DNA of 64,000 nt from Tepidiforma sp. (GTDB lineage: Bacteria; Chloroflexota; Dehalococcoidia; Tepidiformales; Tepidiformaceae), in the NCBI GenBank assembly GCA_026003935.1, contig BPIE01000001.1, forward strand, positions 620,001 through 684,000, read 5' to 3'. Positions 4,112-35,925 of the stretch are shown in pieces; the stretch's first letter is position 1; the number at the start of each line of letters is the position of its first letter. The translations under genes and the position numbers were made by a program. A model generated the notes under the pieces. It searched no databases and was not told the origin of the DNA. It was given only the letters and a program-made list of their open reading frames with translations.

Positions 4112-4114
4112 GGC

Positions 4115-14970: not shown

Positions 14971-15097
14971 GTTGCCCGGGATCTCGGGCGGCGGCTCCCG
15001 CGGGTGCTGCTCCGGATGGATGCAGCGCCCGCGTTGCGTTTGGAAGGGAGAGCCGGCGACGTGCTGCGGACTGCGTTCCCACGGGCGGAGGAAGGGA

Positions 15098-16204
15098 ATG
15101 GAACGAGCCGGAATGGTGCTTCAGCAGCCAGGGCAGGCGGGCGCGGTCGGGGCGGCGCTCGCCGGCGGGTGCGGGTTCCGCCGGTTCGCGCTGGTGACGG
15201 CGCTCCTGGCCGCGGCCTGGGCCGGCGCGGCGGTGCTGGCGGTGGCGAATGGGCCGGTCCGGATTCCGCCGGTTCACGTCGTCTCGGCGCTGGCGGACCG
15301 GGTGGGCATCCGCGCCGGGACGTACGAGGAGCGGGAGCGGCTGGTGATCGAACGGCTGCGGCTGCCGCGGGTGGTGCTGGCGACGCTCACGGGGGCGGCG
15401 CTGGCGGCGGCGGGGGCGACGCTGCAGGCGCTGTTTCGGAATCCGCTGGCGGACCCGGGGCTGCTGGGGGTTTCGTCCGGGGCGGCGACGGGCGCCGTCG
15501 CGGCGATTGCTTCGGGGATTGGGGCTGCGTCGATGTGGTGGGTGTGCGGATCGGCGTTTGCCGGGGCGATGGGGGCGGTGACGCTGGTGTATGTGCTGGG
15601 CGCTCCCGGCGGCCGGCCGGTACCTTCGAGCCTGCTGCTGGCGGGTGTGGCGGTGAGTGCGTTTTTGGGGTCGGTGACGTCGGTGGTCATTGCGCTGGTG
15701 CCGCCGGACGAGGCGCTCCGGGGCATCCTGTTTTGGCTGGCGGGCGGGTTCAGCGGTGCGCAGTGGGGCTACGTCCGGGTTGTTGGCATGCCGGTGATAG
15801 CGGGGCTGCTCGTGATGGGGCTGGCGGGGCGCCAGCTGAATTTGCTGGCGGTGTCGGAGGAGCTGGCGGCGACGAGCGGGGTGCGGGTGGGGCTGACGCG
15901 GGCGGTACTGCTGGGTGCGGCGACGCTGGCGACGGCGGCTTCGGTGAGTGTGAGCGGGACGATTGGCTTCGTGGGGCTGGTGGTCCCGCATGTGCTGCGG
16001 CTGGTGCTCGGGCCGGACTACCGGTACCTGCTGCCGGCTTCGATGGTTGCGGGTGCGGCGGTGCTGGTGGGGGCGGACACGGTGGCGCGGACGGTGGTAC
16101 GGCCGGCGGAGCTGCAGGTGGGGATGGTAACGGCGCTGGCCGGGGCGCCGGTCTTTGCGGTGATCCTGCTGCGACAGCGTTCGCGGCTGGCAATCCAGGT
16201 GTAA
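15098..16204 (+). CDS. btuC: Corrinoid/cobalamin ABC transporter permease (FecCD family)
   Basis: BtuC-type inner-membrane permease (368 aa, about ten membrane segments). Family marks are RLPRVVLATLTGAALAAAGA, QALFRNPLADPGLLGVSSGA and the C-terminal SGTIGFVGLVVPHVLRLVLG. The ATG at 15098 is chosen because GGAGGAAG lies just upstream; the open frame runs 42 codons further back into the leader but has no family character there. The riboswitch, the following binding protein and ATPase, and the B12 genes make corrinoid the likely cargo rather than iron-siderophore. Confidence 0.9.
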   Translation: MERAGMVLQQPGQAGAVGAALAGGCGFRRFALVTALLAAAWAGAAVLAVANGPVRIPPVHVVSALADRVGIRAGTYEERERLVIERLRLPRVVLATLTGAALAAAGATLQALFRNPLADPGLLGVSSGAATGAVAAIASGIGAASMWWVCGSAFAGAMGAVTLVYVLGAPGGRPVPSSLLLAGVAVSAFLGSVTSVVIALVPPDEALRGILFWLAGGFSGAQWGYVRVVGMPVIAGLLVMGLAGRQLNLLAVSEELAATSGVRVGLTRAVLLGAATLATAASVSVSGTIGFVGLVVPHVLRLVLGPDYRYLLPASMVAGAAVLVGADTVARTVVRPAELQVGMVTALAGAPVFAVILLRQRSRLAIQV

Positions 16205-16225
16205 CCAGAGGAGGAATGTTCGAAC

Positions 16226-17329
16226 ATGCAACGATTCTTGCAGCGGCTGTTGCCTCTCGCGCTGGCGGCGCTCGCGGTGAGCGCGCTGGTCGCGGGCTGC
16301 GGGGGCGACGACGATGGCGGTGAGCCCCCTTCGACGGGGAGGGCACCGGCGACGGCGGCAGCGACACCAACGGAGCCGGCTGCGAAGCGGATCGAGGAAC
16401 GGCTGAAGGGCGTCCCGGGCATTGTCGACCCGTCGAATCTGTCGTGGCCGCGGGAGGTGGAGGGGCTGAACGGGAAGCGGACGCTGACCGAGAAGCCGAC
16501 GAAGATTCACACGATGTCGGCGGGCATCGACGAGATTACGCTGTCGCTCGTCCCGCTGGAGCGCGTGGTGGGGGTGGGTTCGGCGACGAAGAATCCTGAT
16601 GTTTCGAGTTTTGCCTCGCTCGTCAAGGACCTGCCGACGGTGGCCCGGGAGCCGGAGGCGGTGGTGGCGAGCGGGGCGGAGCTGGTCATCGCGACGCCGA
16701 CGCAGAAGGCGGACGTGGTCGCGGCGATCGAGCAGGCGGGCGTGCCGGTGGTGCAGCTGAATCTCGACCCGACGCCCGCCGGGCGGCTGAATGCCATCCT
16801 GCTGCTGGGCTATATCTACGGGGAGGAGGAGCGGGCGATCGCGCTGGCCGACGAAGTGGAGGCGCGGTACGAGAAGGTGGTCGCGGTGACGGGTAAGAAG
16901 AGCGATTCGGAGAGGCCGGTCGTTGCGCACGTCACGAAGTACACGTCGCTCTACATGGCAGGGTCTGGGACGACCGGTGAAGGGATCATCACGGCGGCGG
17001 GCGCGAAGAACGCGGGGACGGTGAGCGGCATCAAGGGGAACCAGCAAATCGGGCTGGAGGCGGTGGTGGCGGCGAACCCCGATGTGATCATCATCCCGAT
17101 GCCGAGCGAGGCAGGTGAGAAGTTCAAGGCTGAGCTGCTGGCGGAGCCGGCGCTCGCGGGGGTGCCGGCCATCAAGAACGGCAAGGTGTACGTGGTGCCG
17201 CCGGCGCTATACACGACCAATTCGTTTGCGAATGTGCGGGCGGTTGAGCACCTTGCGCATATCCTCTGGCCGTCGGAGTTCCCGGTGGCTGACCCGCCGC
17301 AGTTCAGCCTTGCGGGGCAGGGCGGCTGA
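16226..17329 (+). CDS. btuF: Corrinoid ABC transporter substrate-binding lipoprotein
   Basis: BtuF/FecB-type binding protein (367 aa). Signal peptide with lipobox LVAGC (Cys25), then an acidic and Ala/Thr-rich linker to about residue 55. The two-lobed binding domain shows PTKIHTMSAGIDEITLSLVP, VVGVGSAT and VYVVPPALYTTNSFANVRAVEHLAHIL. An AGGAGGAA ribosome binding site precedes the ATG. It lies between permease and ATPase in one operon. Cargo is inferred from the riboswitch. Confidence 0.9.
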   Translation: MQRFLQRLLPLALAALAVSALVAGCGGDDDGGEPPSTGRAPATAAATPTEPAAKRIEERLKGVPGIVDPSNLSWPREVEGLNGKRTLTEKPTKIHTMSAGIDEITLSLVPLERVVGVGSATKNPDVSSFASLVKDLPTVAREPEAVVASGAELVIATPTQKADVVAAIEQAGVPVVQLNLDPTPAGRLNAILLLGYIYGEEERAIALADEVEARYEKVVAVTGKKSDSERPVVAHVTKYTSLYMAGSGTTGEGIITAAGAKNAGTVSGIKGNQQIGLEAVVAANPDVIIIPMPSEAGEKFKAELLAEPALAGVPAIKNGKVYVVPPALYTTNSFANVRAVEHLAHILWPSEFPVADPPQFSLAGQGG

Positions 17330-17338
17330 GGCCTGGGG

Positions 17339-18160
17339 ATGGCGGCGCCGTTCGCGCTCGTTGCTGATGGGCTGGGATACCGGGCGGGGGGCCGGTGGCT
17401 CCTGCGCGAGGTGTGCCTGCGGGCGAGCCCCGGCGAGGTCGTGGGGCTGATCGGGCCGAACGGCGCCGGGAAGTCGACGCTTGCGAGGCTGCTGGCCGGG
17501 CTGCTGCGCCCGGCCAGCGGCCGGGCGTGGTTCGAGCAAGGCGGCCGGGTCCTGCGGCGTTCCGCTGCGGCGCGCCAGCTCGCCTATGTGGCGCAATCGG
17601 TGCCGGAGGCACCGGGGTTCACGGCGGGTGAGGTGGTGCTGATGGGGCGATACCCGCACCGGGGGGCGCTGGCGCGGGAGACCACGGCCGACCGCGAGGC
17701 GGCGGCGCGGGCGATGGGATGGATGGGGGTGCTCGAGCTGGCAGGACGGCGGTTCGACTCGCTTTCGGGGGGCGAGCGGCAGCGGGTGATGGTGGCGCGG
17801 GCGCTGGCGCAGGCGGAACGGATGGTCATCCTCGACGAGCCGACGTCCGCGCTCGACGTGCGGCACCAGCTCGAGCTGCTGGCGCTGCTGCGGAGGCTGG
17901 CTGAGGAGGGAATGGGGTTCGTGGTGGTGCTGCACGACCTCGCGGCTGCGGGGAGCTGGTGCGACCGACTCGTGCTGCTGGACCGGGGCCGGGTTGCGGC
18001 GGAGGGAGTCCCGCGGGAGGTGCTCCGCGAGGAGGTGCTTGCGGAGGTTTACGGCATCGAGGCTGCCGTGGAATGGGATGGCGAGGGCCGGTGCAGCATC
18101 GCGTTTGCGCTGGCCGGGACACGCGGCGAAGCAGCGGGGGTGAGCCATGTCGGACGGTGA
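17339..18160 (+). CDS. btuD: Corrinoid ABC transporter ATPase
   Basis: ABC ATPase of the FepC/BtuD group (273 aa). Walker [10 protein letters not shown] at residues 39-47, Q-loop in [20 protein letters not shown], signature [17 protein letters not shown], Walker [13 protein letters not shown], and switch His in VVLHDLAAA. The C-terminus overlaps the cobO start by 14 bases, so the uptake and adenosylation genes are coupled. Confidence 0.92.
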
Positions 18161-18707: not shown

Positions 18708-19747
18708 TGACGTACGTGATTCCGGAATTCGACCAGGCGGCGGCGCGGGCGGCTGCGGAGCGGCTCGACCGGCTGACGAAACCGCAGGGGAGCCTTGGAC
18801 GGCTGGAGGAGCTGGCCATCCGGCTCGCGGGGATGACGGGCAACGCGCGGTGCAGGTTCGAGCGCAGGACGGTGGTGGTGATGGCGGCGGACCACGGGGT
18901 GACAGAGGAGGCGGTCTCGGCGTATCCCCCGGAGGTGACGGTGCAGATGGTGGCGAACTTCGTCGCCGGGGGTGCCGGGATCAACGTGCTGGCGCGGAGG
19001 GCGGGTGCGCAGGTCGTGGTCGTGGACATGGGTGTCCGGGGGCCTGCTGCGGCGTCAGGGGTGCTCGACCGGCGGCTGGGGAGCGGCACGCGGAACATGC
19101 TCCGCGAGCCGGCGATGACGCGGGCGCAGGCCGAGGCCGCGATTGCGACGGGGCGCGAGCTTGCGGGCCAGCTTGCGGCCGGGGGCACGGAGCTCCTGCT
19201 GACGGGGGAGATGGGCATCGGGAATACGACGGCTGCGAGCGCGGTGACGGCTGCGCTGACGGGGCGGCCGCCAGCGGAGGTGACCGGCAGAGGTACGGGG
19301 CTGGACGATGCGGCGCTGGCGCACAAGGTGAGCGTGGTGGAGCGTGCGCTGGCCCTGCATCGGCCGGAGCCGGGGGACCCGGTGGGGGTGCTGGCGGCGG
19401 TTGGGGGGTTCGAGCTCGGGGGGCTGGCGGGCCTGGTCATCGGGGCGGCGGAGCGGCGCATCCCGGTGGTGCTGGATGGGTTCATCACGGGCGCGGCGGC
19501 GCTGCTGGCGGCGGCACTCGCGCCTTCGTGCAGGGCGTATCTCATCGCCTCGCACCGGTCGGTGGAGCCGGGGCACGGGGCAATCCTGGCGGTGCTGGGG
19601 CTGGAGCCGCTCCTCGACCTGGGGCTGAGGCTGGGGGAGGGCACCGGGGCCGCGCTGGCGCTGCAGCTCATCGATGCGGCACTGGCCGTCCGGGACGAGA
19701 TGGCGACGTTCGACGAGGCGGGTGTGTCGGAGCGAAGCGAGGGATGA
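18707..19747 (+). CDS. cobT: Nicotinate-nucleotide--dimethylbenzimidazole phosphoribosyltransferase
   Basis: Makes alpha-ribazole phosphate from the lower-ligand base and nicotinate mononucleotide (346 aa). Family marks: LDRLTKPQGSLGRLEELA, VVVMAADHGVTEEAVSAYP, LLLTGEMGIGNTTAASA, GRGTGLDDAALAHK and the catalytic Glu region SHRSVEPGHGAIL. Start and stop overlap the neighbours, consistent with one transcript. This is the salvage-type CobT, not the chelatase subunit of the same name. Confidence 0.96.
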   Translation: MTYVIPEFDQAAARAAAERLDRLTKPQGSLGRLEELAIRLAGMTGNARCRFERRTVVVMAADHGVTEEAVSAYPPEVTVQMVANFVAGGAGINVLARRAGAQVVVVDMGVRGPAAASGVLDRRLGSGTRNMLREPAMTRAQAEAAIATGRELAGQLAAGGTELLLTGEMGIGNTTAASAVTAALTGRPPAEVTGRGTGLDDAALAHKVSVVERALALHRPEPGDPVGVLAAVGGFELGGLAGLVIGAAERRIPVVLDGFITGAAALLAAALAPSCRAYLIASHRSVEPGHGAILAVLGLEPLLDLGLRLGEGTGAALALQLIDAALAVRDEMATFDEAGVSERSEG

Positions 19748-20500
19748 ACGGGCTCGCGACAGCGGTCGCGCTGCTGACGCGGATACCGGTCCGGGGCGGG
19801 GCGCGGCATCCGGAGCGTGCTGCGCGATGGGTGCCGGCTGCGGCGGTGGTCGTGGCTGCGCCGCCGGCGCTCGCGGCGTGGGTACTGGGGGAGCTGCTGC
19901 CGGGAGCCCCGGCGGCGGCGCTGACGGTCGCGGCGTGGGTCGCGGTCACGGGAGCGCTGCACCTGGACGGGCTGGCGGACTGCGCCGATGCGGCGTTTCT
20001 GCCGGCGGACCGAGCGCGCCGGTGCGGAGGTGCTCGCGGACGTGCACCATGGGACGTTTGCCACGGCGGCGATTGGGCTGGTCCTGCTGGTGAAGTTCGG
20101 CTGCCTCGCGGGGATGACGCCGGCGACGGCTGGTGCGAGCGTGTTCGCGGCGGTCGTGGCGGCGAGGGGGTGGCTCCCGGCGGCTGCTGCCGGCGCGCCG
20201 CCACTCCGGGATTCGGGGATGGGTGCGGCCTTCAGGGCGGGGTGTACGCGCTTCGCGGTGGCGGGCGGATGCCTCGCGGCGTGTGCGGGCCCGATGGCGG
20301 CGCTGGGCTGGTGGGGTGCGGGAGCAGCGGCGGCGGGCGGGGCGGCGGCAGGGCTGGCGGCATGGGGACTAAGGCGGGCGCTCGGGGGGCTGAATGGCGA
20401 CGGATACGGGGCGTGTGTGGAGATTGGAGAATGCGCGGTGCTGGCGGCGGCTGCGGGATTTGGGGGACGGCTCGCGCCCTGGGGGGTCTTCGGATGGTGA
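19744..20500 (+). pseudogene. cobS: Adenosylcobinamide-GDP ribazoletransferase CobS, frameshifted
   Basis: CobS is the membrane enzyme that joins alpha-ribazole to adenosylcobinamide-GDP. The first frame gives MNGLATAVALLTRIPVRGG and GALHLDGLADCADAAFLPAD (the Asp-rich active-site motif). At about 20015-20027 homology jumps to the next frame (EVLADVHHGTFATAAIGLVL, then GLNGDGYGACVEIGE) and ends at 20500. Removing one base near 20022-20024 restores RARRAEVLADVHHGTF. The first frame stays open into cbiB, so an automatic caller may report a false CobS-CbiB fusion. Either a real lesion or a sequence error. Confidence 0.85.
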
Positions 20501-24501: not shown

Positions 24502-24527
24502 GCGGGCGGTGAGCAGCGTGGTAGAGT
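24498..24527 (+). promoter_or_regulatory. Promoter of the second cobalamin operon
   Basis: TTGAGC (overlapping the cobU stop), 18-base spacer, TAGAGT. Same architecture as the promoter at 14747. Confidence 0.6.
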
Positions 24528-24534
24528 CCGGGCA

Positions 24535-24690
24535 TCAGCGCGGTCACGCGAACCCGGTGCGAATCCGGGGCTGTCCCGCAACTGTGATCCGCCGCCGGGC
24601 GGTAAGCCAGGTCGCCGGGGCCGTGCTGGTGTCTAGCCCGCGGGGAAACGGGTGATGGACACGTGGCTCCAGCCGGTCGCCATGTGCCGC
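24535..24690 (+). promoter_or_regulatory. Cobalamin riboswitch (upstream of cobN1)
   Basis: Same core as the first riboswitch: GAACCCGGTGCGAATCC, GGGGCTGTCCCGCAACTGTG and GTAAGCCAGGTCGCC, plus the shared GTGTCTAGCCCGCGGGGAAA arm. Long stretches are identical to the first copy, so the pair probably arose by duplication. It should shut off the chelatase and cobalt-transport genes when B12 is plentiful. Confidence 0.93.
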
Positions 24691-24883: not shown

Positions 24884-27800
24884 GTGAGCGGCCAGGAGCC
24901 AGGTTTCGCGGACATCCTCGTGGTGTCGGCGTACGACGCCGACCTCAGGGCTCTGGCGCAGGTGCGGAGCGGGCTTCCGGCGGGGTTTCCCCGGGTGGTG
25001 AGCTGGCCGGCGGCCGAGGCTGCAGGGGCTCCGGAGCGGGTGGTCGCAGCAGCGGAGCGCGCGGGGGTAGTGGTCGTGCGGCTCCTCGCGGGGCCGGAAT
25101 CGCTCGGCGGGCTGTTCGAGCAGGTGACGGCCGTGTGCCGTTCGCGGGGGACGCCGCTCATCGTGCGGCGGGCGTATCCAATGACGGAGAACACGCTGGC
25201 GGAGCACAGTACGGTGGAGGCGGAGGATGCGGAGCGGGTACTGGAATATCTGCTGCACGGTGGCGAACGGAACGCGGAGCAGCTGCTGCGGTTCCTTGCC
25301 GACCGGTATCTCGGGGGACGGTTTGGGTGGGAGCCGCCGGCGCCGATGCCGTGGGAGGGGTACTTCGTGCCTGGCCGGGCGTTGGCGGTCGAGCGGGGGG
25401 TGCTGGCCGGGGCGCCGTGGTGGCGGCAGGGCAGGCCGGCTGTGGGGGTGCTGTTCTACCGCAACCTCGTGCAGATGGACACGACGGGTGTGGTGGAGGC
25501 GCTCGCGGAGGCGCTGGACCGGCACGAGGTGAATGCGGTCCCGGTGTTTGCGTATGGTCTGCGGGCGAGTTCGAACGGGCGTGACAATGCGGCGGCGGTG
25601 CGGGCGCTGCTGGGGCCCGGCGAGGGGTGGGAGGGGGTCCGGGCGGTCATATCGCTTATGCCGTTTTCGGCGGCGGTGCCGGGACCGGATGGCGTGGCGG
25701 AGGCGGGGGAGGGCCTGGCGCCGCTCGGGGTGGCGGTGGTGCAGGGCGCGATGGCGCAGGGGAGCCTCGATGACTGGCGTAAAAGCCCGGCGGGGCTCGG
25801 GCCGCTGGACGTGGCGACGTCGGCGGCGCTGCCGGAGCTGGACGGCAGGCTGATCTCGGCGCCGGCGGGGTTCCGCGCGGTTTCGGTGGATGGGGAGTTT
25901 CCGGGCCTGGCATGGGAGGGGGACCGGCTGGACCGGCTCGCGGGGCTTGCGGCGGGGTGGGCCAACCTCGCGGCGAAAGCGAACGGGGAGAAGCGGGTGG
26001 CGGTGCTGCTGAACAACCCGAACGGCCGGGAGGCGCGGATTGCGGCGGCGTTCGGGCTCGACGCGCCGGCATCGGTCGTGCGGCTGCTCGAGGGGCTGCG
26101 GGAGGCGGGATACCGGGTGGACGGGGCGCCCGCAGACGGGGACGAGCTGGTGCAGCGGCTCATCGACCTGTGCCCAAATGACCCGGCTGCAGCGACGGCG
26201 GAGCAGGTGCGGGGTGCGCCGTGCCGGGTTTCGGCGGAGCGGTATCGGGAGTGGTTTCGCGAGCTCCCGCGGGAGGTGCGGGAGGAGGTCGAGCGCCACT
26301 GGGGCCCGGCACCGGGCGACGTGTTCGTGGACGGCGGCGACGTGGTCGTCCCGGGGGCGGTCTTCGGGAATGTGTTCGTCGGCCCGCAGCCGCAGCGGGG
26401 GTTCGCGCTGAACCGGGAGGCGATTCTGCATTCGCCCGACCTGCCGCCCTCGCACCAGTACCTTGCGGCGTACCTGTGGCTGCGGGAGGTGTTCCGGGCG
26501 GACGCCATCGTGCAGGTGGGGAAGCACGGGAATCTGGAATGGCTGCCCGGGAAGGCGGTCGGGCTTTCCGGGAGGTGCTACCCGGATATCGCGCTCGGGA
26601 GCCTGCCGCTCATCTACCCGTACATCGTGAACAACCCGGGCGAGGGGACGCAGGCGAAGCGGCGGGGGGCGGCGGCGATCGTGGACCACCTGACCCCGCC
26701 GATGGCGGCTGCTGGCAGTTATGGAGAGCTGGCGACCGCGCGGGCTGCGCTGGAGGCGCTGCAGGAGGCGGTGGAGCGGGGCGACGAAGGGCCGCGGACG
26801 GCGGCGCTTGCGGAGCGGGCGCTGGACGCCGTGCGGGCGGCGCGGCTGGACCGGGACCTGGGCTTCGAGGATGGGGTGCCGGGCCCCGCGGAGCTGGCGC
26901 GGCGGGGGCTTCACTACCTGGATGAGCTCGAGGGCGGACTGATTGCGACGGGTCTTCACGTGCTCGGGAGCGTGCCAGGGGATGATGCGCTCGCGGGGAT
27001 GCTGCTGGCCATCGACGCGGGGCAGGGGAGCCGGTCGCTGGTCCAGGCGGTAGCGCGGAGGCTGGGGGTCGCGTGGGATGGCCGGGGCCGGGTGCCCGAG
27101 GCGGCGGCGAGCATCGCCGGCGATGCGGTGCGCGCGGCGGTGACGGCCGGTGCGCGGGAGGCGGCGGCGGTCCTGGCGGAACGGCTTGGCGGCGACGATG
27201 GGGAGGCATTGGCGGCGCTGGATGAGCTGGCGCTGCGGGTGCTCCCGGCGATTCGGCGGGCGCCGGACGAGCTGGGCCGCGTGGTGGGCGCGCTCGAAGG
27301 GCGTGCCGTCCCGCCGGGCCCGGCGGGGGCACCGACGCGGGGCCAGACGGACTGCCTGCCGACGGGCAGAAACTTCTACTCGTTCGACCCGAGGGTGATG
27401 CCGGGGCGAGCAGCCTGGGAGGCGGGCCGGGCACTCGCGGAGGCGGTGATCGCCCGGTACGCGGCGGAGGAGGGCCGGGTGCCGGAGTCGGTCGCGGTCA
27501 TCGCGTGGGGGACGGCGAACATCCGGACGCGGGGCGAGGACATCGCGCAGGTGCTGCACCTGCTGGGGGTGGAGCCGGTGTGGGATGGCAGGAGCGGGCG
27601 CGTCACGGGGGTCGAGGTGGTGCCGCTGGAGCGGCTGGGGCGGCCGCGGATCGACGTGGTGCTGCGGGCGAGCGGGTTTTTCCGCGATGCCTTCGGGGCG
27701 GTGATTGCCCTGGTGGACGAGGCCGTGTCCAAGGTGGCTGCGCTCGATGAGCCGCCCGAGCTGAACTTCGTGCGCAAGCATCTCCTGGCGGACCTCACGC

Positions 27801-28558
27801 GCGGGGTAGGCGAGGAGGAGGCGCTGTACCGGGTTTTCGCGCCGCGGCCGGGGGCGTACGTGGACGGGGTGGTGCAGGCGGTAGAGACGGGACAGTGGCG
27901 GACGCGCAGGGAGCTCGGGGAGGTGTATGGGGCGTGGGTGGACCACGCGTACGGGCGGAACGTCTATGGGAGCGCGGCGCGGGATGCGCTCGTGCGGCGG
28001 GCAGCGGAGCTAAGCGTGGTGCTGAAGACGCGGGACAACGAGGAGCATGACGTGTTTGACACCGACGATTACTACCAGGACTTCGGGGGGATGGCGGCGT
28101 TCGCGCGGGAAGTGGCGGGTGCGGAGGTGAAGGCGTGGATTGGGGACAGCACGCGGCCGGCGGCGCCGGTGGTCCGGAGCGCAGAGGACGAGGCGCGGCG
28201 GACGCTGCGGCGGCGGGTGCTGAATCCGAAGTGGCTGGAGGGTATGGAGCGACACGGTTACCAGGGAGGTTCGGAGATGCTGAAGACGGTGGAGTACGCA
28301 TTCGGGTTCGATGCGACGGCCGGGGTGCTGGAAGACTGGATGTATGAACGGCTTGCGGAGACGTACGTGCTCGATGGCAGGCGGCGGGAGGTGCTGCTGG
28401 CGCACAATCCCTGGGCGCTGCGGGATATGGCGGCGCGGCTGCTGGAGGCAGTATCACGGGGGATGTGGGAGGCGCCGGGCGCGGAGATGCTGGCGGGCCT
28501 CGAGCAGGCGCTCCTGCAGGCGGACGGTGCGATCGAAGAGCGGGGGTCGGTGCGGTGA
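24884..28558 (+). CDS. cobN: Cobaltochelatase large subunit CobN (copy 1)
   Basis: Large subunit of the ATP-dependent aerobic-type cobalt chelatase (1224 aa), which inserts Co2+ into hydrogenobyrinic acid a,c-diamide. CobN/BchH family marks: VGVLFYRNLVQMDTTGVVEAL, RVAVLLNNPNGREARIAAAFGLD, GNVFVGPQPQRGFALNR, VQVGKHGNLEWLPGK, LPTGRNFYSFDPRVMP, SGFFRDAFGAVIALVDEAVSK, and DNEEHDVFDTDDYYQDFGG. The start is a GTG without a clear ribosome binding site. A second, divergent CobN follows two genes on. ChlH-type magnesium chelatase is less likely given the riboswitch and cbtAB. Confidence 0.92.
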   Translation: MSGQEPGFADILVVSAYDADLRALAQVRSGLPAGFPRVVSWPAAEAAGAPERVVAAAERAGVVVVRLLAGPESLGGLFEQVTAVCRSRGTPLIVRRAYPMTENTLAEHSTVEAEDAERVLEYLLHGGERNAEQLLRFLADRYLGGRFGWEPPAPMPWEGYFVPGRALAVERGVLAGAPWWRQGRPAVGVLFYRNLVQMDTTGVVEALAEALDRHEVNAVPVFAYGLRASSNGRDNAAAVRALLGPGEGWEGVRAVISLMPFSAAVPGPDGVAEAGEGLAPLGVAVVQGAMAQGSLDDWRKSPAGLGPLDVATSAALPELDGRLISAPAGFRAVSVDGEFPGLAWEGDRLDRLAGLAAGWANLAAKANGEKRVAVLLNNPNGREARIAAAFGLDAPASVVRLLEGLREAGYRVDGAPADGDELVQRLIDLCPNDPAAATAEQVRGAPCRVSAERYREWFRELPREVREEVERHWGPAPGDVFVDGGDVVVPGAVFGNVFVGPQPQRGFALNREAILHSPDLPPSHQYLAAYLWLREVFRADAIVQVGKHGNLEWLPGKAVGLSGRCYPDIALGSLPLIYPYIVNNPGEGTQAKRRGAAAIVDHLTPPMAAAGSYGELATARAALEALQEAVERGDEGPRTAALAERALDAVRAARLDRDLGFEDGVPGPAELARRGLHYLDELEGGLIATGLHVLGSVPGDDALAGMLLAIDAGQGSRSLVQAVARRLGVAWDGRGRVPEAAASIAGDAVRAAVTAGAREAAAVLAERLGGDDGEALAALDELALRVLPAIRRAPDELGRVVGALEGRAVPPGPAGAPTRGQTDCLPTGRNFYSFDPRVMPGRAAWEAGRALAEAVIARYAAEEGRVPESVAVIAWGTANIRTRGEDIAQVLHLLGVEPVWDGRSGRVTGVEVVPLERLGRPRIDVVLRASGFFRDAFGAVIALVDEAVSKVAALDEPPELNFVRKHLLADLTRGVGEEEALYRVFAPRPGAYVDGVVQAVETGQWRTRRELGEVYGAWVDHAYGRNVYGSAARDALVRRAAELSVVLKTRDNEEHDVFDTDDYYQDFGGMAAFAREVAGAEVKAWIGDSTRPAAPVVRSAEDEARRTLRRRVLNPKWLEGMERHGYQGGSEMLKTVEYAFGFDATAGVLEDWMYERLAETYVLDGRRREVLLAHNPWALRDMAARLLEAVSRGMWEAPGAEMLAGLEQALLQADGAIEERGSVR

Positions 28559-30543
28559 GCGGACCGGTGTTTCCCTTTGCGGCGATTGTGGGACAGGAGG
28601 AGATGAAGCTCGCCCTGCTGCTGAACGTGATCGACCCGGGGCTGGGCGGGGTGCTGATCCGGGGCGGAAAGGGGACGGCCAAGTCGACGGCGGTGCGTGC
28701 GCTGGCGGAGCTGCTGCCGCCCATCGAGGCCACGGAGGGGTGTCCCTTTGGGTGCGGACCGGGGGAGCAGCCGGAGTGCCCTGGGCGGGACCGGCACGGC
28801 GACGGGCGCATCGTCGCGCGGAGGCCGCGGCTGGTGACGCTGCCGGTGGGGGCTTCGGAGGAGCGGCTGGTGGGTTCGCTGGATATCGAAGCGGCGCTGG
28901 GGCGGGGCGAACGCGTGGTGGAGCCGGGGCTGCTGGCGGCGGCGCACCGCGGCGTGCTGTACGTGGACGAGGTGAACCTGCTGGCGGACCACCTCGTGGA
29001 CGCGCTGCTGGACGCGGCAGCGATGGGGCGGAACTACATCGAGCGGGACGGCATCTCGGCGACGCACCCGGCAAGGTTCGTGCTGGTGGGGACGATGAAC
29101 CCGGAGGAAGGGGAGCTGCGGCCGCAACTGCTCGACCGCTTCGGGCTGATGGTGGAAGCGGAACAGTCGCTGGAGCCAGCACTGCGGGCAGAGGTGGTGC
29201 GGCGGCGGATTGCGTTCGAGCGTGACCCTGAGGGCTTCGCGGCGCGCTGGGCACGGGAGAGCGGGGAACTCGCGGCGCGCATCCGGGCGGCCCGGGAGGC
29301 AGTCGAGGGGGTGGAGGTACCCGACGGGGTGCTGGAGGCGATGGTGAGCGTGTGCGCGGCGTGCGAGGTGGATGGGATGCGTGCCGACCTCGCGCTCTAC
29401 CGGGCGGCCCGGGCGCACGCCGCGTGGGAGGGGCGGCGGCGGGCGACCGTCGCAGACGTTCGGGCGGTGGCGCCGCTCGTGCTCGGGCACCGAAGGCGGC
29501 GGCTACCGTTCGAACAGCCGGGAGTCGACCGGCAGCAGGTCGAGTCGGCGCTGGAGGCATTCGACGAGGAGGGGGATGGCGAGGGGCAGGATGGCGCGCC
29601 CGCGGAACCGGGACCTTCCGGGGGCGGCGAGCCGGGCGGGCAGGGGCCCGCGGAAGGGAGGGGACCGGAGGCTGCGGGCGGGGATGGGCCGGGCGAAGGG
29701 GCGCGGCGGGCGGCGGCGATTGGGGACCCGCGCCGGCTCGAGGGGGGTGTCCTGCTGCAGTCGGGCGGGCGGAGGTCGACCATGACTGGGAGACGCCGGC
29801 GGCGGCGGGCGCCGGGTGTGCGGGGGAGGCACATCGGCGCGGAGCCGTGGCGCGGGGCCGCGGGGGAGGTCGACGCGGCGGCGACCCTTCGGGCGGCAGC
29901 GGTGCGGGGGCCGCGGCGGGCGCTGCCGGTGCCGCGGGAGGACTGGCGGGTGAAGCTGCGGGCGGCGGAAGTCGCGGCGCTGGTGGTGATGGTGGTCGAT
30001 GCGAGCGGGTCGATGGGAGCGCGCCGAAGGATGGAGGCAGCGAAGGGTGCGGTGCTCGGGCTGCTGCAGGATGCGTATCTGCGGCGCGACCGGGTGGCGT
30101 TCGTGGCGTTCGATGGGAAGGGTGCGCGGCTCCTGCTGGGGCCGACGCGGAGCGTGGATGAGGCGCACCGCGCGCTGGGGGAGTTCGGCACCGGGGGACG
30201 GACGCCGCTCTGGGCGGGGCTGGCCGAGGCAGCGGCGGTCACGGCGCGGGCGCGGAGACGGGACCCCGACCTGCCCGTGCTGGTGGTGCTGGTGACGGAC
30301 GGGAGGGCGAACGCCGGGGCGGGCGGGCTGGACCCGGTGAGGGCGGCTGTCGAGCAGGCCCGTGCGCTCCGGGCGGCAGGGGCGGACGCGCTGGTAGTGG
30401 ATACGGAGGAAGGGCCGGTCCGGCTCGGCATCGCGGGGCGGCTGGCGGAGGCGTTGGGAGGGGCGCTGGTGCGCCTAGACGAGCTCGAGCCGCGGCGGCT
30501 TTGGGAGGCCGTGCGGATGCGGCGGGCGGAGGCGGCACGGTGA
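28555..30543 (+). CDS. ChlI-ChlD fused chelatase ATPase (putative cobaltochelatase subunit)
   Basis: AAA+ motor that powers CobN (662 aa). N-terminal ChlI-like ATPase: IVGQEEMKLALLLNVIDP, Walker A RGGKGTAKST, Cys-rich insert GCPFGCGPGEQPECPG, Walker B VLYVDEVNLL, and MNPEEGELRPQLLDRFGL. A Gly/Glu/Pro-rich linker spans about residues 340-400. The C-terminal von Willebrand A domain has the MIDAS motif VDASGSMGA. It joins the small and medium chelatase subunits in one chain. GTGA overlaps join it to both CobN genes, so one motor may serve two CobN proteins. No frameshift is visible here. Confidence 0.88.
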   Translation: MSGPVFPFAAIVGQEEMKLALLLNVIDPGLGGVLIRGGKGTAKSTAVRALAELLPPIEATEGCPFGCGPGEQPECPGRDRHGDGRIVARRPRLVTLPVGASEERLVGSLDIEAALGRGERVVEPGLLAAAHRGVLYVDEVNLLADHLVDALLDAAAMGRNYIERDGISATHPARFVLVGTMNPEEGELRPQLLDRFGLMVEAEQSLEPALRAEVVRRRIAFERDPEGFAARWARESGELAARIRAAREAVEGVEVPDGVLEAMVSVCAACEVDGMRADLALYRAARAHAAWEGRRRATVADVRAVAPLVLGHRRRRLPFEQPGVDRQQVESALEAFDEEGDGEGQDGAPAEPGPSGGGEPGGQGPAEGRGPEAAGGDGPGEGARRAAAIGDPRRLEGGVLLQSGGRRSTMTGRRRRRRAPGVRGRHIGAEPWRGAAGEVDAAATLRAAAVRGPRRALPVPREDWRVKLRAAEVAALVVMVVDASGSMGARRRMEAAKGAVLGLLQDAYLRRDRVAFVAFDGKGARLLLGPTRSVDEAHRALGEFGTGGRTPLWAGLAEAAAVTARARRRDPDLPVLVVLVTDGRANAGAGGLDPVRAAVEQARALRAAGADALVVDTEEGPVRLGIAGRLAEALGGALVRLDELEPRRLWEAVRMRRAEAAR

Positions 30544-31751
30544 ACGCGGGGAAGGAGTGCGGGGACGGCTGCGGCGGGGGGTGTGAGGGCCCGGTGCGCG
30601 GGCGGCGCGGGCAGCGCAACATCGTGACGCGGGCAGACGGCCGGCTGGTCAACGTCAACCGGCAGCTGGGGCAGCTGTTCGTGTGCGCGCACGGATGCTG
30701 CTGCGGGCGGGTGGAGGAGGGGAAGCCGGCGGCGCCGTTCGAGCTGTACCACGCGGAATGGGAGCGCCGGAGGCTGCGGAACCGGGTGCACCTGAACATG
30801 GGCGGCTGCCTTGGGCCGTGCCCGCTGGCGAACGTGTGCATGCTGCTGTTCGACGGGGTCACGGTGTTCTTCCACTCGATGAACTCGGAGCGGGTGGTTG
30901 TCGAGCTGTTCGACTACATCGAGTCGTTGGCGGCGGCGGGGCGGTACCTGCCGCCGGAGGGCGACCTGGGGCAGCTGGCGTTCTCAGCGATGGCGAATGA
31001 CGGACGGGGGCGGGCGGCGGAGGCCGCCGTTTGGGAGCCGCAGGCGCCGCAGCGGGGGTTCGCCGTGCTGACGCACTCGGACACGGATGTGCTGTGTTTC
31101 CGCCAGGCGGCGAAGGAGCTGGGCGATGCGTTCCCACCGGTTACGGTCCGGAACATTTCGGGGTTGCGGGACCGGGAGGATGCGGCGGCGCTGTTCGAGC
31201 TGGTCGTGCCGCGGGCGGATGTGACGGTGCTCATCGTGCACGGGGGCCGGCAATCGGTGCCGGGCGTCGAGCGGCTGGTGCGGCTGGTGGAGGAGCACGG
31301 GGGGTGGCTGGTGGCTGTGCCGGGGACCGAGGAACTCGACGAGGGGCTGGTTGGGCTTTCCACGGGCGGACCGGGGATTGCCCTCGCGGCGCGGGGGGTA
31401 CCTGCAGGAGGGGGGCATCGCAAACTACCGCGAGCTGCTGAAGATGCTGGCGGACCACCTGCTGAGCCTCGGGGTGGGGTACCGGGACCCGGTGCCACAG
31501 CCGCGGACGGGGTTTTACCATCCGCGGTTTGCGAGCCGGGAGGAGTGGGCTCGGGCGCGGGACGGCTCGCGGCCGGCGGTCGGGGTGCTGTTCTACCGGT
31601 CGCTGCTGCTTTCGGGGGACGTGGCGTTCGTGGACGCGCTGGTCGCAGCGGGGGAGGAGCTGGGAGCGGACGTATTGCCGGTGTTCGGGTATTCGCTGAA
31701 GGACGACCCCGACGAACGGGGGCGAACAGCGGTGCTGCGGGAGCTGTGTGA
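30540..31751 (+). CDS. [2Fe-2S] ferredoxin domain fused to CobN N-terminus (5' part of frameshifted cobN2)
   Basis: GTG start overlapping the previous stop, with GGAGG 7 bases upstream. Residues 1-20 hold Cys7, 11 and 15. Residues 45-135 form a thioredoxin-like [2Fe-2S] ferredoxin with Cys49, 53-55, 90, 94 and 100 (FVCAHGCCCGRVEEG, HLNMGGCLGPCPLANVC). From about residue 170 the chain reads as a CobN N-terminus (QRGFAVLTHSDTDVLCFRQA, LIVHGGRQSVPGVERLVRLV). Homology stops at the G6 run 31392-31397; the frame stays open to 31751, but that tail is spurious. Deleting one G joins it to the next entry. Confidence 0.8.
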   Translation: MNAGKECGDGCGGGCEGPVRGRRGQRNIVTRADGRLVNVNRQLGQLFVCAHGCCCGRVEEGKPAAPFELYHAEWERRRLRNRVHLNMGGCLGPCPLANVCMLLFDGVTVFFHSMNSERVVVELFDYIESLAAAGRYLPPEGDLGQLAFSAMANDGRGRAAEAAVWEPQAPQRGFAVLTHSDTDVLCFRQAAKELGDAFPPVTVRNISGLRDREDAAALFELVVPRADVTVLIVHGGRQSVPGVERLVRLVEEHGGWLVAVPGTEELDEGLVGLSTGGPGIALAARGVPAGGGHRKLPRAAEDAGGPPAEPRGGVPGPGATAADGVLPSAVCEPGGVGSGAGRLAAGGRGAVLPVAAAFGGRGVRGRAGRSGGGAGSGRIAGVRVFAEGRPRRTGANSGAAGAV

Positions 31752-34700
31752 CGGCGACGGGCCGCCGCTGGTCGACGTGGTGGTGAACACGATGTCGTTC
31801 GCGCTCGGGAGCGCGGGGCGGGAGCCGGGTGACGACGACTGGCAGGTTCGGGTGCTGGAGGAGCTGGGGATTCCGCAGGTTCAGGGCATCGGGATTTCGG
31901 CTTCGGTGGAGCAGTGGTCGGCGTCGGTGACGGGTGCGGGACCGCTGGATGTGGCGATGTCGGTGGCGATCCCGGAGCTGGACGGGCGGGTCATCGGGGT
32001 GCCGGTTTCGTTCAAGGAGCGGGATGCTGAGGGGGTGGTCCGGCGGGTGCTCCCGGCTGACCGGGCGCGGCGCCTGATGGGGCTGGCGGTGCGGCTGGCT
32101 GCGCTGCGGAGGAAGCCGAATGCCGAGAAGCGGGTGGCCATCATCCTGACGAACCACCATGCGAAGGCTTCGCGGATTGCGAACGCGGTGGGGCTCGATT
32201 CGCCGGAGAGCGTCGTTCGGCTGCTGCGGCGCATGCGAGAGGCCGGCTACACGGTGGGAGAGCTCCCGGAAGACGGCGAGGCGCTAATGCGAGAGCTGAT
32301 GGCGCGCGGGCATTACGAGGAGGAGACGCTGACGGAGGGGATGCTGGCGGGTGCGGCGGCACGCATCCCGGCGGCAAGGTATGCGGAGTGGTTCGCCGAG
32401 CTGCCGGAAAGGCGACGGGAGGAGATGGTGCGCCAGTGGGGTGAGCCGCCCGGCCGGCATTACCTCGACGCGGAGGGGAATCTCGTGGTGGCGGGGGTGG
32501 CGACGGGCAACGTCTTCATCGCCGTTCAGCCGCCGCGGGGCTATTCGATGGACCGGACGGCGATCATGCACCAGCCGGACCTGCCGCCGCCGCACCCGTA
32601 CTACGGGCTGTACCGGTGGCTCCGGGAGCCGCGGGAGCTCGGCGGGTTTGGTGCGGATGCGATTGTCCAGGTGGGGAAGCACGGTTCGGCGGAGTGGCTG
32701 CCGGGGAAGGGGGTTGGGCTCGGTGCAGACTGCTACCCGGACCTGTTCGTTGGGGACCTGCCGGTGGTGTACCCGTTCATCATCGACGGGCCGGGGGAGG
32801 GTGCTGCGGCGAAGCGCCGGACGCACGCGGTGATTGTGGACCACCTTCCGCCGCCGATGACGAATGCGGAGCTGTACGGGGAGCTGGCGGAGCTGGACCG
32901 GCTGGTGGATGACTACTATCTGCTGGAGCGGACGGACCCGGGGCGATTGCCGTATCTGCAGCGGCAAATCTGGCAGGTCATCCGGGAGGCGGGGCTCGCG
33001 GGGGAGCTCGACCGGCTTTTGCAGGACGGGGGCGATGGCCATGTGCACGAGTGGGACCCGCGGGAGCACGAGGACGGCGTACCGTACGCGCTCTCGGACC
33101 TCAGCGGGGAGGGGTTCGCGCACCTGGTGGAGGCGATCCACACGTATACGCATGAGCTGGGGGCGATGCCCATCCGGGCGGGATTCCACATCCTGGGGGA
33201 GCTGCCGGCGGGCGAAGAGCTGGTCGATTTCGCGGCGGCGATCCTGCGGGTGGCGAACGGGCCGGTTCCCGCACTGCTGGATGCCGCGGCGGCATGGTTC
33301 GGCGTGCCGGCGGAGCTGCTGCGCCTCCCGGCAGGAACGCGGCTGGATGGGGCAGCGGCGGTGCCGGATTGCTGCGGCGCGGCGACGGTCGGCGGGCTGC
33401 AGGAGTGGCTGGCCGAGCAGGCGCGGGCGGCGCTGAGGGCGGTCGTGCTGGAGGGTGCGGCAGCGGCGGAGGCGCTTGGGCGGCTTCCGCCGTCGGCGGG
33501 GGGTGAGCGGGGGCCGCTGGAGGCGGTGCTTCGGTTCGCTGCGGAGCGGCTGCTGCCGGCACTGGCGCGGTGCGATGACGAGGTGGAGCACGTGCTAGAC
33601 GCGCTCGGGGGGCGGTACGTGCCGCCCGGCCCTTCGGGCGCGCTGACGCGGGGGATGGCGCATGCACTGCCGACGGGGCGGAATTTTTACGCCGTGGACC
33701 CGCGCGGTATCCCGAGCCGGGTGGCGTGGGAGGTGGGGCGGGAGCTGGCCGCGGAGACGGTTGGGCGGTACCGGAGAGAGACGGGCGGAGTGCCGGCTTC
33801 GGTGGGGATTTCGATGTGGGGCACGACGGCGATGCGGAACGGCGGCGAGGACGTGGCGCAGGTGATGGCGCTGATAGGGGTGGAGCCGACCTGGCAGCGT
33901 GAGGGCCGGCGGGTGACGGGTTTCCGGGTGGTGGGGCTGGAGGAGCTGGGGCGGCCGAGGGTGGATGTGGTGTGCCGGGTGTCGGGGTTCTTTCGGGATG
34001 CGTTCCCGGGCGTGATTGAGCTGCTGGGGGAGGCTTTTGATGCGGTGGCGGCGCTCGACGAGCCGGCAGAGTTGAATCCTATCCGGGCGCACCGGCTTCG
34101 GAGGGCAGAGGAGCTGACGGCAGGGGGGATGGAGCACGGCGAGGCGTGGCGGAGGGCCGGGCTGCGGGTGTTCAGCAGCGCGCCCGGGGTCTACGGGGCA
34201 GGGGTGCTGCAGCTGCTGGACGAGGCCGCGTGGGAGAGCGAGGCAGACGTTGCGGAGACGTTCATGACGTGGGGCGGGCATGCGTATGCGCCGGGGATGT
34301 ACGGGGTGGCGATGGGGGAGGAGCTCCGGGACCGACTGCGGCTGGTGGAGGTGGCGATTCAGAACCAGGACAACCGGGAGCACGACCTGCTGGATGCGGA
34401 CGACTATTTCCAGTTCCAGGGCGGGATGGCCGCGGCGGTGCGTCTGCTGCGGGGCAGGGGGCCGAGGCTGTACTTCGGGGACACGGCGGACCCGGGGCGC
34501 CCGCGTCTGCGGCTGACCGAGGACGAGCTGGACCGGGTGTTCCGGGCGCGGGTGATGAACCCGAAGTGGATTGGGGCGATGCGGGAGCACGGCTACCGGG
34601 CGGGGACGGAGTTCGCGGCGACGGTCGACTATCTGTTCGGCTGGGCTGCGACGGCGGGGATTGTGAAGGACTGGCAGTTCGACCGGGTGGCGGAGCGGTA

Positions 34701-34881
34701 CGTGCTGGACTCGGAGATGCGCGGGTTTCTCGCGGAGCACAATCCGTGGGCGCTGCGGGATATGGCGCGGCGGATGGTCGAGGCTGCGCGGAGGGGGCTC
34801 TGGAAGGCGGGCGAGGGGATGGTGGCTGCCCTCGAATCGGTGCTGCTCGACGCGGAGGGGGCAATTGAAGACCGGATGTGA
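31351..34881 (+). CDS. cobN: Cobaltochelatase large subunit CobN (copy 2), main part after a frameshift
   Basis: Continues the CobN sequence in the next frame from about codon 31396 (GYLQEGGIANYRELLKMLAD); the first 15 codons from the listed ATG are out of place. Marks: VGVLFYRSLLLSGDVAFVDAL, VAIILTNHHAKASRIANAVG, GNVFIAVQPPRGYSMDR, VQVGKHGSAEWLPGKGVG, LPTGRNFYAVDPRGIPS, SGFFRDAFPGVIELLGEAFD, DNREHDLLDADDYFQFQGGM. With the fused 5' part the intact protein would be about 1446 aa. It is clearly different from copy 1 and may prefer another tetrapyrrole or metal. Without the upstream frame it lacks the N-terminal CobN domain. Confidence 0.88.
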   Translation: MGFPRADRGLPSRRGGYLQEGGIANYRELLKMLADHLLSLGVGYRDPVPQPRTGFYHPRFASREEWARARDGSRPAVGVLFYRSLLLSGDVAFVDALVAAGEELGADVLPVFGYSLKDDPDERGRTAVLRELCDGDGPPLVDVVVNTMSFALGSAGREPGDDDWQVRVLEELGIPQVQGIGISASVEQWSASVTGAGPLDVAMSVAIPELDGRVIGVPVSFKERDAEGVVRRVLPADRARRLMGLAVRLAALRRKPNAEKRVAIILTNHHAKASRIANAVGLDSPESVVRLLRRMREAGYTVGELPEDGEALMRELMARGHYEEETLTEGMLAGAAARIPAARYAEWFAELPERRREEMVRQWGEPPGRHYLDAEGNLVVAGVATGNVFIAVQPPRGYSMDRTAIMHQPDLPPPHPYYGLYRWLREPRELGGFGADAIVQVGKHGSAEWLPGKGVGLGADCYPDLFVGDLPVVYPFIIDGPGEGAAAKRRTHAVIVDHLPPPMTNAELYGELAELDRLVDDYYLLERTDPGRLPYLQRQIWQVIREAGLAGELDRLLQDGGDGHVHEWDPREHEDGVPYALSDLSGEGFAHLVEAIHTYTHELGAMPIRAGFHILGELPAGEELVDFAAAILRVANGPVPALLDAAAAWFGVPAELLRLPAGTRLDGAAAVPDCCGAATVGGLQEWLAEQARAALRAVVLEGAAAAEALGRLPPSAGGERGPLEAVLRFAAERLLPALARCDDEVEHVLDALGGRYVPPGPSGALTRGMAHALPTGRNFYAVDPRGIPSRVAWEVGRELAAETVGRYRRETGGVPASVGISMWGTTAMRNGGEDVAQVMALIGVEPTWQREGRRVTGFRVVGLEELGRPRVDVVCRVSGFFRDAFPGVIELLGEAFDAVAALDEPAELNPIRAHRLRRAEELTAGGMEHGEAWRRAGLRVFSSAPGVYGAGVLQLLDEAAWESEADVAETFMTWGGHAYAPGMYGVAMGEELRDRLRLVEVAIQNQDNREHDLLDADDYFQFQGGMAAAVRLLRGRGPRLYFGDTADPGRPRLRLTEDELDRVFRARVMNPKWIGAMREHGYRAGTEFAATVDYLFGWAATAGIVKDWQFDRVAERYVLDSEMRGFLAEHNPWALRDMARRMVEAARRGLWKAGEGMVAALESVLLDAEGAIEDRM

Positions 34882-34933: not shown

Positions 34934-35149
34934 GTGGATACACGGTCAACGGTGATGGTTGGAGGCCGGTTCGGGTGGCCGCGGCTTGCGGTCCGGGACT
35001 GGCTGGCGGTTGCGGCCGCGGTCGGGCTTGCGGGTTCGCTGCTGTACCTCGCGGGCTTCGAACAGGGCGCGGTGGCGCTGTTCGACGGCACGCTGGTTCA
35101 TGAGTTCGTGCACGACGCACGGCACGCGCTGGGCTTCCCATGTCATTAG
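34934..35149 (+). CDS. cbtB: Cobalt transporter subunit CbtB
   Basis: Short protein (71 aa) with one membrane segment (LAVAAAVGLAGSLLYLAGF) and the His-rich C-terminus HEFVHDARHALGFPCH that defines CbtB. The GTG at 34934 is chosen because AAAGGAGA lies 8 bases upstream; an open frame extends back into the cobN2 stop region without family character. CbtB and CbtA are a predicted cobalt importer found with B12 genes. It is co-transcribed under the second riboswitch. Confidence 0.88.
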   Translation: MDTRSTVMVGGRFGWPRLAVRDWLAVAAAVGLAGSLLYLAGFEQGAVALFDGTLVHEFVHDARHALGFPCH

Positions 35150-35925
35150 CAGGGGTGCACGCGGGAAGGGGTGAAGGTGTCGGCGGCAGGGCTGTTGCCG
35201 GGAGGCACCGGCGGCAGACGCTGGACGTGCTGCTGGCGGGTGTGTTGGCCGGGCTGCTGGCTGGCGTGGTCGCGGCGCTGGTTGCGTGGGCGTTCGCCGA
35301 GCCGGCGCTGGAGCGTGCGATCGAGCTGGAGGCGGCAGCGGGAGGCCCCGGGGAGGTCCATGTGCACGAGTCGGAGCCGGTTTCGCGGGACGTGCAGCGG
35401 ACGGCAGGGCTTGCCGCGGGGACGGCGGCTGTGGCGGTCGCCGGGGGGCTGGCGGCGGCGGTTGTCGGGCTGGCGAGCGCGCGATTCGGCTGGAGCCATT
35501 CGGCGCTGGGAGCGGCGGGCTGGGCGGCGCTTGCGGGCGGCTATGCGTTGGGCCTGGTGCCGGGGCTGGCGTACCCGGCGAATCCGCCGGGGGTTGGGAG
35601 CGCGGAGAGCGCGGGGGAGCGGACGCTGGTGTACCTGGGCGTGGCGGCGCTTGGGCTGGCGGCGGCGGTCGGGGCTGCGGTGCTGGCACGGGCTGGGCGC
35701 AGGTTGCCGGTCGGGGGCGAGGTGATGGGGGTGACGGTGCTGGTTGGGGGGCTGTTCCTGGCGATGGCGGCGGCGGAACCGGAGGTGCCTGCGGATGGCT
35801 TCCCTGCGGACGTGTTGTGGGAGTTTCGCCGCGGTGCGCTGCTGACGCAGCTCTCGCTGTGGGGGACGCTGGCGGCCGGCTTTTGGCTGTTTGCGGGCGC
35901 GGCCGGCGAGCGGCGGCCGGGCTGA
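35140..35925 (+). CDS. cbtA: Cobalt transporter subunit CbtA
   Basis: Membrane protein (261 aa as read) with about six hydrophobic segments. CbtA marks: LLAGVLAGLLAGVVAALVAW at the start of the conserved part, a His-containing loop EVHVHESEPVSRDVQRTAG, YPANPPGVGSAESAGERTLVYL and AEPEVPADGFPADVLWEFR. The ATG overlaps the cbtB stop by 10 bases; the first 25 residues are not conserved-looking, so the true start could be a later GTG. It should import Co2+ for the chelatases encoded just upstream. It is followed by a strong hairpin. Confidence 0.85.
   Translation: MSLAGVHAGRGEGVGGRAVAGRHRRQTLDVLLAGVLAGLLAGVVAALVAWAFAEPALERAIELEAAAGGPGEVHVHESEPVSRDVQRTAGLAAGTAAVAVAGGLAAAVVGLASARFGWSHSALGAAGWAALAGGYALGLVPGLAYPANPPGVGSAESAGERTLVYLGVAALGLAAAVGAAVLARAGRRLPVGGEVMGVTVLVGGLFLAMAAAEPEVPADGFPADVLWEFRRGALLTQLSLWGTLAAGFWLFAGAAGERRPG

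Follow-up and report, generated by a model that had tools for sequence, protein, structure and literature searches.

We analyzed a stretch of 64,000 nucleotides from Tepidiforma sp. (contig BPIE01000001.1, positions 620,001 to 684,000; called the window below), which contains at 30540-34881 a gene for a CobN-type chelatase subunit headed by a Cys-rich ferredoxin-like domain (Fd-CobN). In the assembled sequence this gene falls into two open frames which meet at a run of six G (G6). The parts of the locus are listed here, with reference to the relatives L019 and L020 and to L021 from Tepidiforma flava.

30540..31391, + strand: first piece with GTG start, predicted Cys-rich thioredoxin-like ferredoxin domain (~30591-30998), linker and CobN N-terminal domain (~31041-31364); translation, alignment with relatives, profile match to 5abr, TIGR02257
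31393..31398, + strand: G6 run with the frame-breaking extra base; L019, L020 and L021 have no such run here
31351..34881, + strand: second open frame, CobN homology from ~31399 to the stop; PF02514, TIGR02257

The frame starting with GTG at 30540 reads VNAGKECGDGCGGGC...FVCAHGCCCGR...GGCLGPCPLANV...IALAARG, after which the CobN similarity ends. It thus contains the Cys-rich ferredoxin-like domain followed by the CobN N-terminus, as claimed in a preliminary description of this DNA; in the first piece, residues 168-275 align with TIGR02257 positions 22-130 (E 3.3e-07). Beyond the G6 run the CobN homology moves one frame on and extends to 34881, and the frame 31351-34881 reads ...GYLQEGGIANYR... 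up to its stop codon with no further stop inside. The same description had noticed this shift correctly and had placed the run at 31392-31397; its position is 31393-31398. The second piece scores 1033.9 bits with TIGR02257 (cut-off 822.05; the intact relative L020 reaches 1085.5 bits) and covers positions 3-1087 of the 1090 positions of PF02514, whereas with the BchH/ChlH model TIGR02025 it stays at 721.6 bits, under the cut-off of 829. A gene for an AAA+/VWA partner lies directly beside Fd-CobN: the stop codon of a ChlID-type gene overlaps the GTG start codon (GTGA), and L019, L020 and L021 have an ATG at the same place. Judged from these matches the locus is predicted to encode one protein of ~1446 residues, namely a CobN with an N-terminal thioredoxin-like ferredoxin domain of a type which we call CCCG after its motif, and the predicted function of the fused CobN is ATP-dependent cobalt insertion into corrin. 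In the Tepidiforma copies an extra Cys-rich tail (C-x3-C-x3/4-C, 30558-30584 in the window) precedes the domain.

At the position of the G6 run the sequences of L019 and L020 are one base shorter and contain no G run, and both carry a single open frame (identity to the window over the first piece 79% for L019 and 75% for L020). The preliminary description had held that one extra base breaks the fusion and that close relatives could decide between one gene and two; both relatives have one uninterrupted gene, in agreement with a broken fusion. Since both parts lie in one frame in L019 and L020 the join is homologous and not a matter of chance. The alignment with the relatives also demonstrates that the CobN residues of the first frame continue right up to the break. 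The L019 record (CALLWN010000070.1) carries the gene order CobN-ChlID-FdCobN and shares 79% identity with the window across 1.2 kb; it is labelled as a metagenome-assembled genome of an uncultured Sphingomonadaceae. This label or the binning is probably wrong.

The ratio of nonsynonymous to synonymous substitution rates (dN/dS) is low before as well as after the break, with 0.25 against L019 and 0.24 against L020 in the part before it and 0.19 and 0.20, respectively, in the part that follows. For the neighboring intact CobN paralogue without ferredoxin domain (CobN1) the values are 0.34 and 0.30. The two paralogues (24884-28558 and 30540-34881) flank one ChlID gene, with faster evolution in the paralogue that has no ferredoxin domain (dN/dS 0.30-0.34 vs 0.19-0.25).

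We also asked how often frames are broken elsewhere in the window genome (G000; 1.6 Mb, 72.6% complete). In 163.8 kb of aligned genes 15 frame changes were counted, affecting 13 of 133 genes (71 of the 204 query frames had no accepted counterpart), and the reverse comparison gave 14 frame changes in 163.8 kb in 11 of 138 genes (no counterpart for 75 of 213 frames). Both counts also take in gene ends and compensated indels. A lone one-base indel is the sole frame-changing difference at 6 of the 15 junctions, the rest being compensating indels, gene ends or longer gaps. A homopolymer origin of the other breaks is therefore not clear. The G6 run itself is unremarkable, because 56 such runs occur in the 64 kb, and seven G or C runs of at least six bases start inside 30540-34881. 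A second gene of the cluster, CobS, 11 kb upstream, is broken too and has one extra base near the junction when compared with genome G003. For the 20.9 kb cluster 1.91 breaks would be expected and two are seen (probability of at least two 0.57); using only the six clearest cases 0.77 are expected (probability of at least two 0.18). Two breaks in 20.9 kb are thus no excess over the rough assembly background, which fits an assembly error.

The frame is thus broken by a single inserted base that is private to this genome, most likely a base error of the assembly, this being the simplest reading of the comparisons. Its live rival is a genuine recent mutation in a strain that is shedding B12 assembly and no longer has the fused CobN or CobS. 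That CobS and Fd-CobN are both broken within one cluster would fit such a loss, and three genomes of the same genus (G002, G004 and G005) gave no CobN match at E 1e-100 and no hit for the first piece, which shows that a genome can lack the locus. Two points count against the assembly error. The intact pair L019-L020 has lower dN/dS values than the window (0.20 before and 0.15 after the position of the break), so that the window value lies somewhat above that of intact genes; CobN1, however, has only 0.22 in the same pair, so the unbroken CobN1 of the window is raised too. Moreover the CobS break was spotted by eye and outside the survey, which makes the comparison with the background a rough one. 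Against a loss of function speak the low dN/dS on both sides of the break together with the second frame being free of further stops, the agreement of the number of breaks with the rough assembly background, and the open frames of CobN1, ChlID and the other tested genes of the cluster. We therefore regard a recent mutation as unlikely. The broken frame matters only as a caution on one-base errors in GC-rich assemblies.

Published frameshifting in chlD, a gene for the partner subunit, offers a precedent for a programmed +1 frameshift at the G6 run which would yield a ferredoxin with a CobN stub as well as the full fusion, just as chlD frameshifting yields two subunits according to the accessible part of PMC9227772. 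As a conserved device this is refuted, since neither the slip site nor a break at this place is present in L019, L020 and L021, and the stub would run out into unrelated sequence read out of frame; we consider it highly improbable. That the locus natively holds two genes, one for a ferredoxin with a stub and one for a shorter CobN, would account for the two frames as assembled and has next to no probability, given the single frame in L019 and L020 and the CobN residues in the first frame up to the break.

The Fd-CobN gene of T. flava (L021) is unbroken at the G6 position and broken at other places. T. flava was rejected as support for a conserved break, since its breaks lie elsewhere and the stretch 150001-350000 is full of indels: here we counted 8.4 frame changes per 10 kb with G003 queries (32 of 50 genes) and 8.5 per 10 kb with G000 queries (61 of 95 genes). 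In two other T. flava stretches there was one comparable gene each and no frame change. The indel-rich stretch therefore says little about biology. As an observation of its own, positions 150001-350000 of the deposited complete genome NZ_CP115149.1 (T. flava YIM 72310) appear full of indel errors.

At E 0.001 the first piece had no match in Pfam. A profile built from 12 domain sequences matches the [2Fe-2S] protein 5abr among solved chains with E 2e-06 (E 7.9e-04 with a 31-sequence profile) and 1f37 weakly (E 1), and from this similarity a thioredoxin-like fold and a bound cluster are predicted. In all 31 aligned CobN fusions C49, C53, C54, C55 (the CCCG motif), C90 and C94 are invariant; of the 38 fused sequences, the alignment omits the broken L021 and six others that were near-duplicates or had short frames. 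Four conserved potential ligand Cys and the C-x3-C arrangement of the second pair, as in thioredoxin-like [2Fe-2S] proteins, are thus in place. According to the accessible part of PMC8561814 the cluster of Shethna protein I (FeSI) is ligated by Cys11, Cys24, Cys56 and Cys60; since four Cys are used there and six are kept here, two of the six are extra. One of C53-C55 is the putative cluster ligand. The "redox domain" of the preliminary description is only putative as a function. The domain keeps the Cys positions that a thioredoxin-like [2Fe-2S] protein should have and possesses two more conserved Cys, and the contexts described below point to metal handling. In a tree of 62 domain copies the window copy groups with L019, L020 and L022 (100/100), whereas the deep forks are weak.

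Three distant homologues of the domain, L137 (G150:C2:138783-139157), L138 (G318:C164:1680-2045) and L139 (G150:C19:119889-120206), have an in-frame TGA exactly where CCCG has its middle Cys (..VCNGC-TGA-CGSG..), followed by a hairpin with z values of -2.83, -2.39 and -1.45, respectively. A fourth copy in G318:C281 also has the TGA. For tRNA-Sec, G150 and G318 each have a match of 74.3 bits (cut-off 47); all seven genomes searched pass this cut-off, G000 (49.9) and G003 (49.4) only just. L137, L138 and L139 are therefore candidate selenoproteins, which suggests that the middle Cys may be a reactive residue.

The preliminary description had taken the combination of ferredoxin and CobN for unusual. 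The genome searches do not support this. The domain was found in 52 of 400 Chloroflexota genomes (E 1e-8), and in 29 of them, at 31 places, it lies in an open frame of at least 960 amino acids; G096 and G115 with shorter frames and G000 with its broken frame stand outside these 29. For 29 of these places, spread over 28 genomes, a CobN match shares contig and frame length with the domain. The exceptions are G061:C90 and G424:C176, and the CobN search scored two candidates in each of these two genomes. PF02514, which also covers BchH, matched in 72 of the 400 genomes (E 1e-50). Seven plasmid records (Deinococcus, Spirosoma, Granulicella) match the domain as well; six are annotated just as CobN and one has no feature there. 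In the five plasmid records examined the coding sequence has 1429-1460 codons and an ATPase/VWA or chelatase partner comes after the fused gene, directly in four and one gene on in D. ficus. CbtA or a "nickel transporter" is encoded just upstream, directly or one gene away, in four of these five, Spirosoma having none there. CbtB-CbtA precede the fused gene in Granulicella and follow it in the window, and CbtA adjoins it in L024. The fusion is accordingly read as a real and not a rare one, an architecture that is widespread and already present in public records. A literature search for CobN together with ferredoxin or thioredoxin-like terms, with subscription papers and preprints outside its reach, gave no paper describing the fusion, in line with the earlier statement that it was not known as a described protein.

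The same N-terminal domain is found over the full length on a nitrile hydratase activator in 5 of the 393 genomes of the class (G009, G525, G449, G469, G597); 36 of the 393 match the query protein in either part. All five full-length fusions directly follow the genes for the beta and alpha subunits of nitrile hydratase, with CTLCSC in alpha, which we take to be the cobalt-type motif. On the activator side, the C-terminal part of L026 matches PF21006 with E 2.2e-13. In the tree of domain copies, those from activators together occupy one side of a branch (88/95) that lies among the CobN copies. A literature search for nitrile hydratase with ferredoxin or 2Fe-2S, within the same limits as above, gave no paper on an activator fusion. 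Furthermore the domain heads a YHS-domain protein (identified with Pfam for L027, the others by similar tails), and one of these YHS-fused copies, L127, adjoins CbiM and CbiQ. Of the stand-alone copies L129 neighbors two COG0523 GTPases and L130 neighbors FUR and ZnuA.

Since the domain heads both CobN and the activator of a cobalt nitrile hydratase, we infer that it is a cobalt-handling module. It would bind cobalt, or else an Fe-S cluster next to a reactive pair of Cys, and would offer Co(II) of the proper redox state to the site at which its fusion partner inserts the metal. In this view it would act as a tethered cobalt-handling module and not as a general electron carrier. Taken together, a ~1446-residue Fd-CobN whose break is private and most likely an assembly error, and whose domain serves as a tethered cobalt-handling module, is the reading which we think probable. 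In it the invariant Cys, the fusions and the neighborhoods are observed directly, and the holding of cobalt or a cluster beside the insertion site is what we infer. Being joined to a cobaltochelatase and to a cobalt nitrile hydratase activator, the domain is a testable candidate for a shared cobalt-handling step.

Electron transfer to the cobalt is a possible role and the main rival of cobalt handling: the domain would be an ordinary [2Fe-2S] ferredoxin reducing Co(II) to Co(I) in the new cobyrinate for adenosylation. The profile match to 5abr, with the weak one to 1f37, and the CobO adenosyltransferase in the cluster agree with this. However, the domain also stands at the head of the nitrile hydratase activator, and the cobalt of nitrile hydratase is not bound in a corrin; the two extra conserved Cys would stay unexplained, and the metal-transport and COG0523 contexts call for no electron donor. 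We therefore consider an electron-transfer ferredoxin rather unlikely.

Several findings speak against cobalt handling by the domain, or limit it. The stand-alone copy L133 reads LCCG, so the CCCG motif is not universal outside the fusions. The nitrile hydratase loci without the fusion are also of the cobalt type wherever the motif was seen (6 of 10 loci); the fusion therefore does not discriminate the metal, and links the domain to cobalt enzymes without proving a choice of metal. Among 106 plasmid records none covered 80% of the fused activator protein. Some copies lie beside a heavy-metal ATPase (L125, YHS-fused) or zinc-type genes (L130), so that cobalt specificity is only putative. Finally, CobW_C is absent in 15 of 37 fused and in 13 of 22 unfused genomes, the latter being 22 of ~40 genomes with an unfused PF02514 match, which may include genomes with BchH only. 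The idea that the domain substitutes for CobW (COG0523) was therefore rejected: its prediction failed, as the fused genomes are not poorer in CobW_C than the unfused ones. In the class of the window CobW_C gave no match in any of the seven tested genomes with fused CobN. The accessible part of PMC7689651 states that CobNST requires the chaperone CobW unless cobalt is plentiful, which stands in contrast to these seven genomes.

A wider proposal may be ventured only tentatively. The CCCG domain could be a general tethered module for cobalt delivery, or for cobalt redox control, on two unrelated cobalt-insertion proteins, with relatives serving other metals (the YHS fusions and the copies near COG0523, FUR and ZnuA), with some variants bearing selenocysteine at the middle Cys, and with the Tepidiforma chelatase metalating salvaged corrinoids.

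The pathway setting of the gene bears on this last point. The other features of the cluster are the following.

14799..14859, + strand: cobalamin riboswitch ahead of uptake and assembly genes; RF00174 36.5 bits, model positions 51-163 of 189 only
15020..18160, + strand: BtuC-like permease, substrate-binding and ATP-binding proteins, apparently a corrinoid/iron-type ABC importer; NCBIfam best matches, none shown over cut-off
18147-18707, + strand: CobO/CobA adenosyltransferase; TIGR00708 above cut-off
18677-19747, + strand: CobT phosphoribosyltransferase; TIGR03160 above cut-off
19744..20500, + strand: CobS, split by the frame change into 19744-20040 and 19988-20497; PF02654 positions 1-81 and 76-206 in two frames
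20503-21405, + strand: CbiB/CobD; PF03186
21219-22463, + strand: CobD-like aminotransferase; TIGR01140 266 bits, below the cut-off of 290.55
22442-23944 and 23920-24501, + strand: CobQ and CobU; TIGR00313, NF004469 above cut-off
24524..24639, + strand: cobalamin riboswitch ahead of CobN-ChlID-CobN-CbtBA; RF00174 38.7 bits, gathering threshold 31.5
24884..28558, + strand: CobN1, the paralogue without ferredoxin domain; TIGR02257 993.8 bits, cut-off 822.05
28465..30543, + strand: ChlID-type AAA+/VWA chelatase subunit; TIGR02442 741.3 bits, just under the cut-off of 779.45, Pfam AAA lid, Mg_chelatase and VWA over cut-offs
34934..35149, + strand: CbtB, probable cobalt transporter subunit; PF09489, E 9.1e-13
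35140..35925, + strand: CbtA, probable cobalt transporter subunit; PF09490, E 6.3e-40, no NCBIfam match

The true start of ChlID is probably near 28560; the similarity begins at residue 36. Outside the cluster an Rfam match to the 5' ureB small RNA (5374-5663, + strand, 74.2 bits) lies opposite apparent urease genes (2742-6491, recognized by eye only).

We also searched for markers of corrin-ring synthesis. CbiC was not found in G000 (72.6% complete), G001, G003, G033, G037 and G039, and is present in G059. It is present in 20 of the 31 other fusion-bearing genomes, so there is no fixed link between the fusion and salvage. CbiJ was not found in any of 41 genomes and is a weak marker, only 3 of 14 controls showing it. 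TIGR01465 lies above its cut-off in 19 of the 41 genomes, none of them among G000-G005, where all matches are sub-threshold (in G000 120 bits, cut-off 259.65) and are taken for other methyltransferases; an above-cut-off match is also missing in the CbiC-bearing G059, so its absence is not conclusive as a marker. In the genus Tepidiforma the chelatase seems to serve salvage, much as the accessible text of PMC8305020 suggests a late cobaltochelatase in salvage for haloarchaea. A fused CobN in genomes lacking the tested corrin-ring markers makes this suggestion testable in bacteria.

When compared with known systems, the protein resembles the CobN of the CobNST cobaltochelatase (TIGR02257; 9uk9, 7c6o) over the whole CobN length including the N-terminal domain, and a ChlID partner is encoded next to it. 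Unlike the solved CobN structures it is extended at the N-terminus by ~150 residues, which contain the CCCG domain. In profile A3 the similarity to these structures begins only behind this domain, and the post-ferredoxin portion of the profile matches 9uk9 from residue 21 and 7c6o from residue 38. With the Shethna proteins and the Aquifex ferredoxin (5abr, 1f37) the domain shares the profile match and the C-x3-C second pair. It differs from the Shethna type in its first Cys pair, which is 4-6 instead of 13 positions apart, and in the two additional conserved Cys of the CCCG motif. With respect to nitrile hydratase activators, the domain is carried by the five fusions of the class, whereas annotated accessory proteins on plasmids are without it; those on Rhodococcus plasmids match only residues 155-280 or 191-277 of the query. 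As in programmed chlD frameshifting, in the part of PMC9227772 considered here, the frame changes within a chelatase gene; in contrast to that case the break in the window lies in a different subunit, has no conserved slippery site and is private to one genome.

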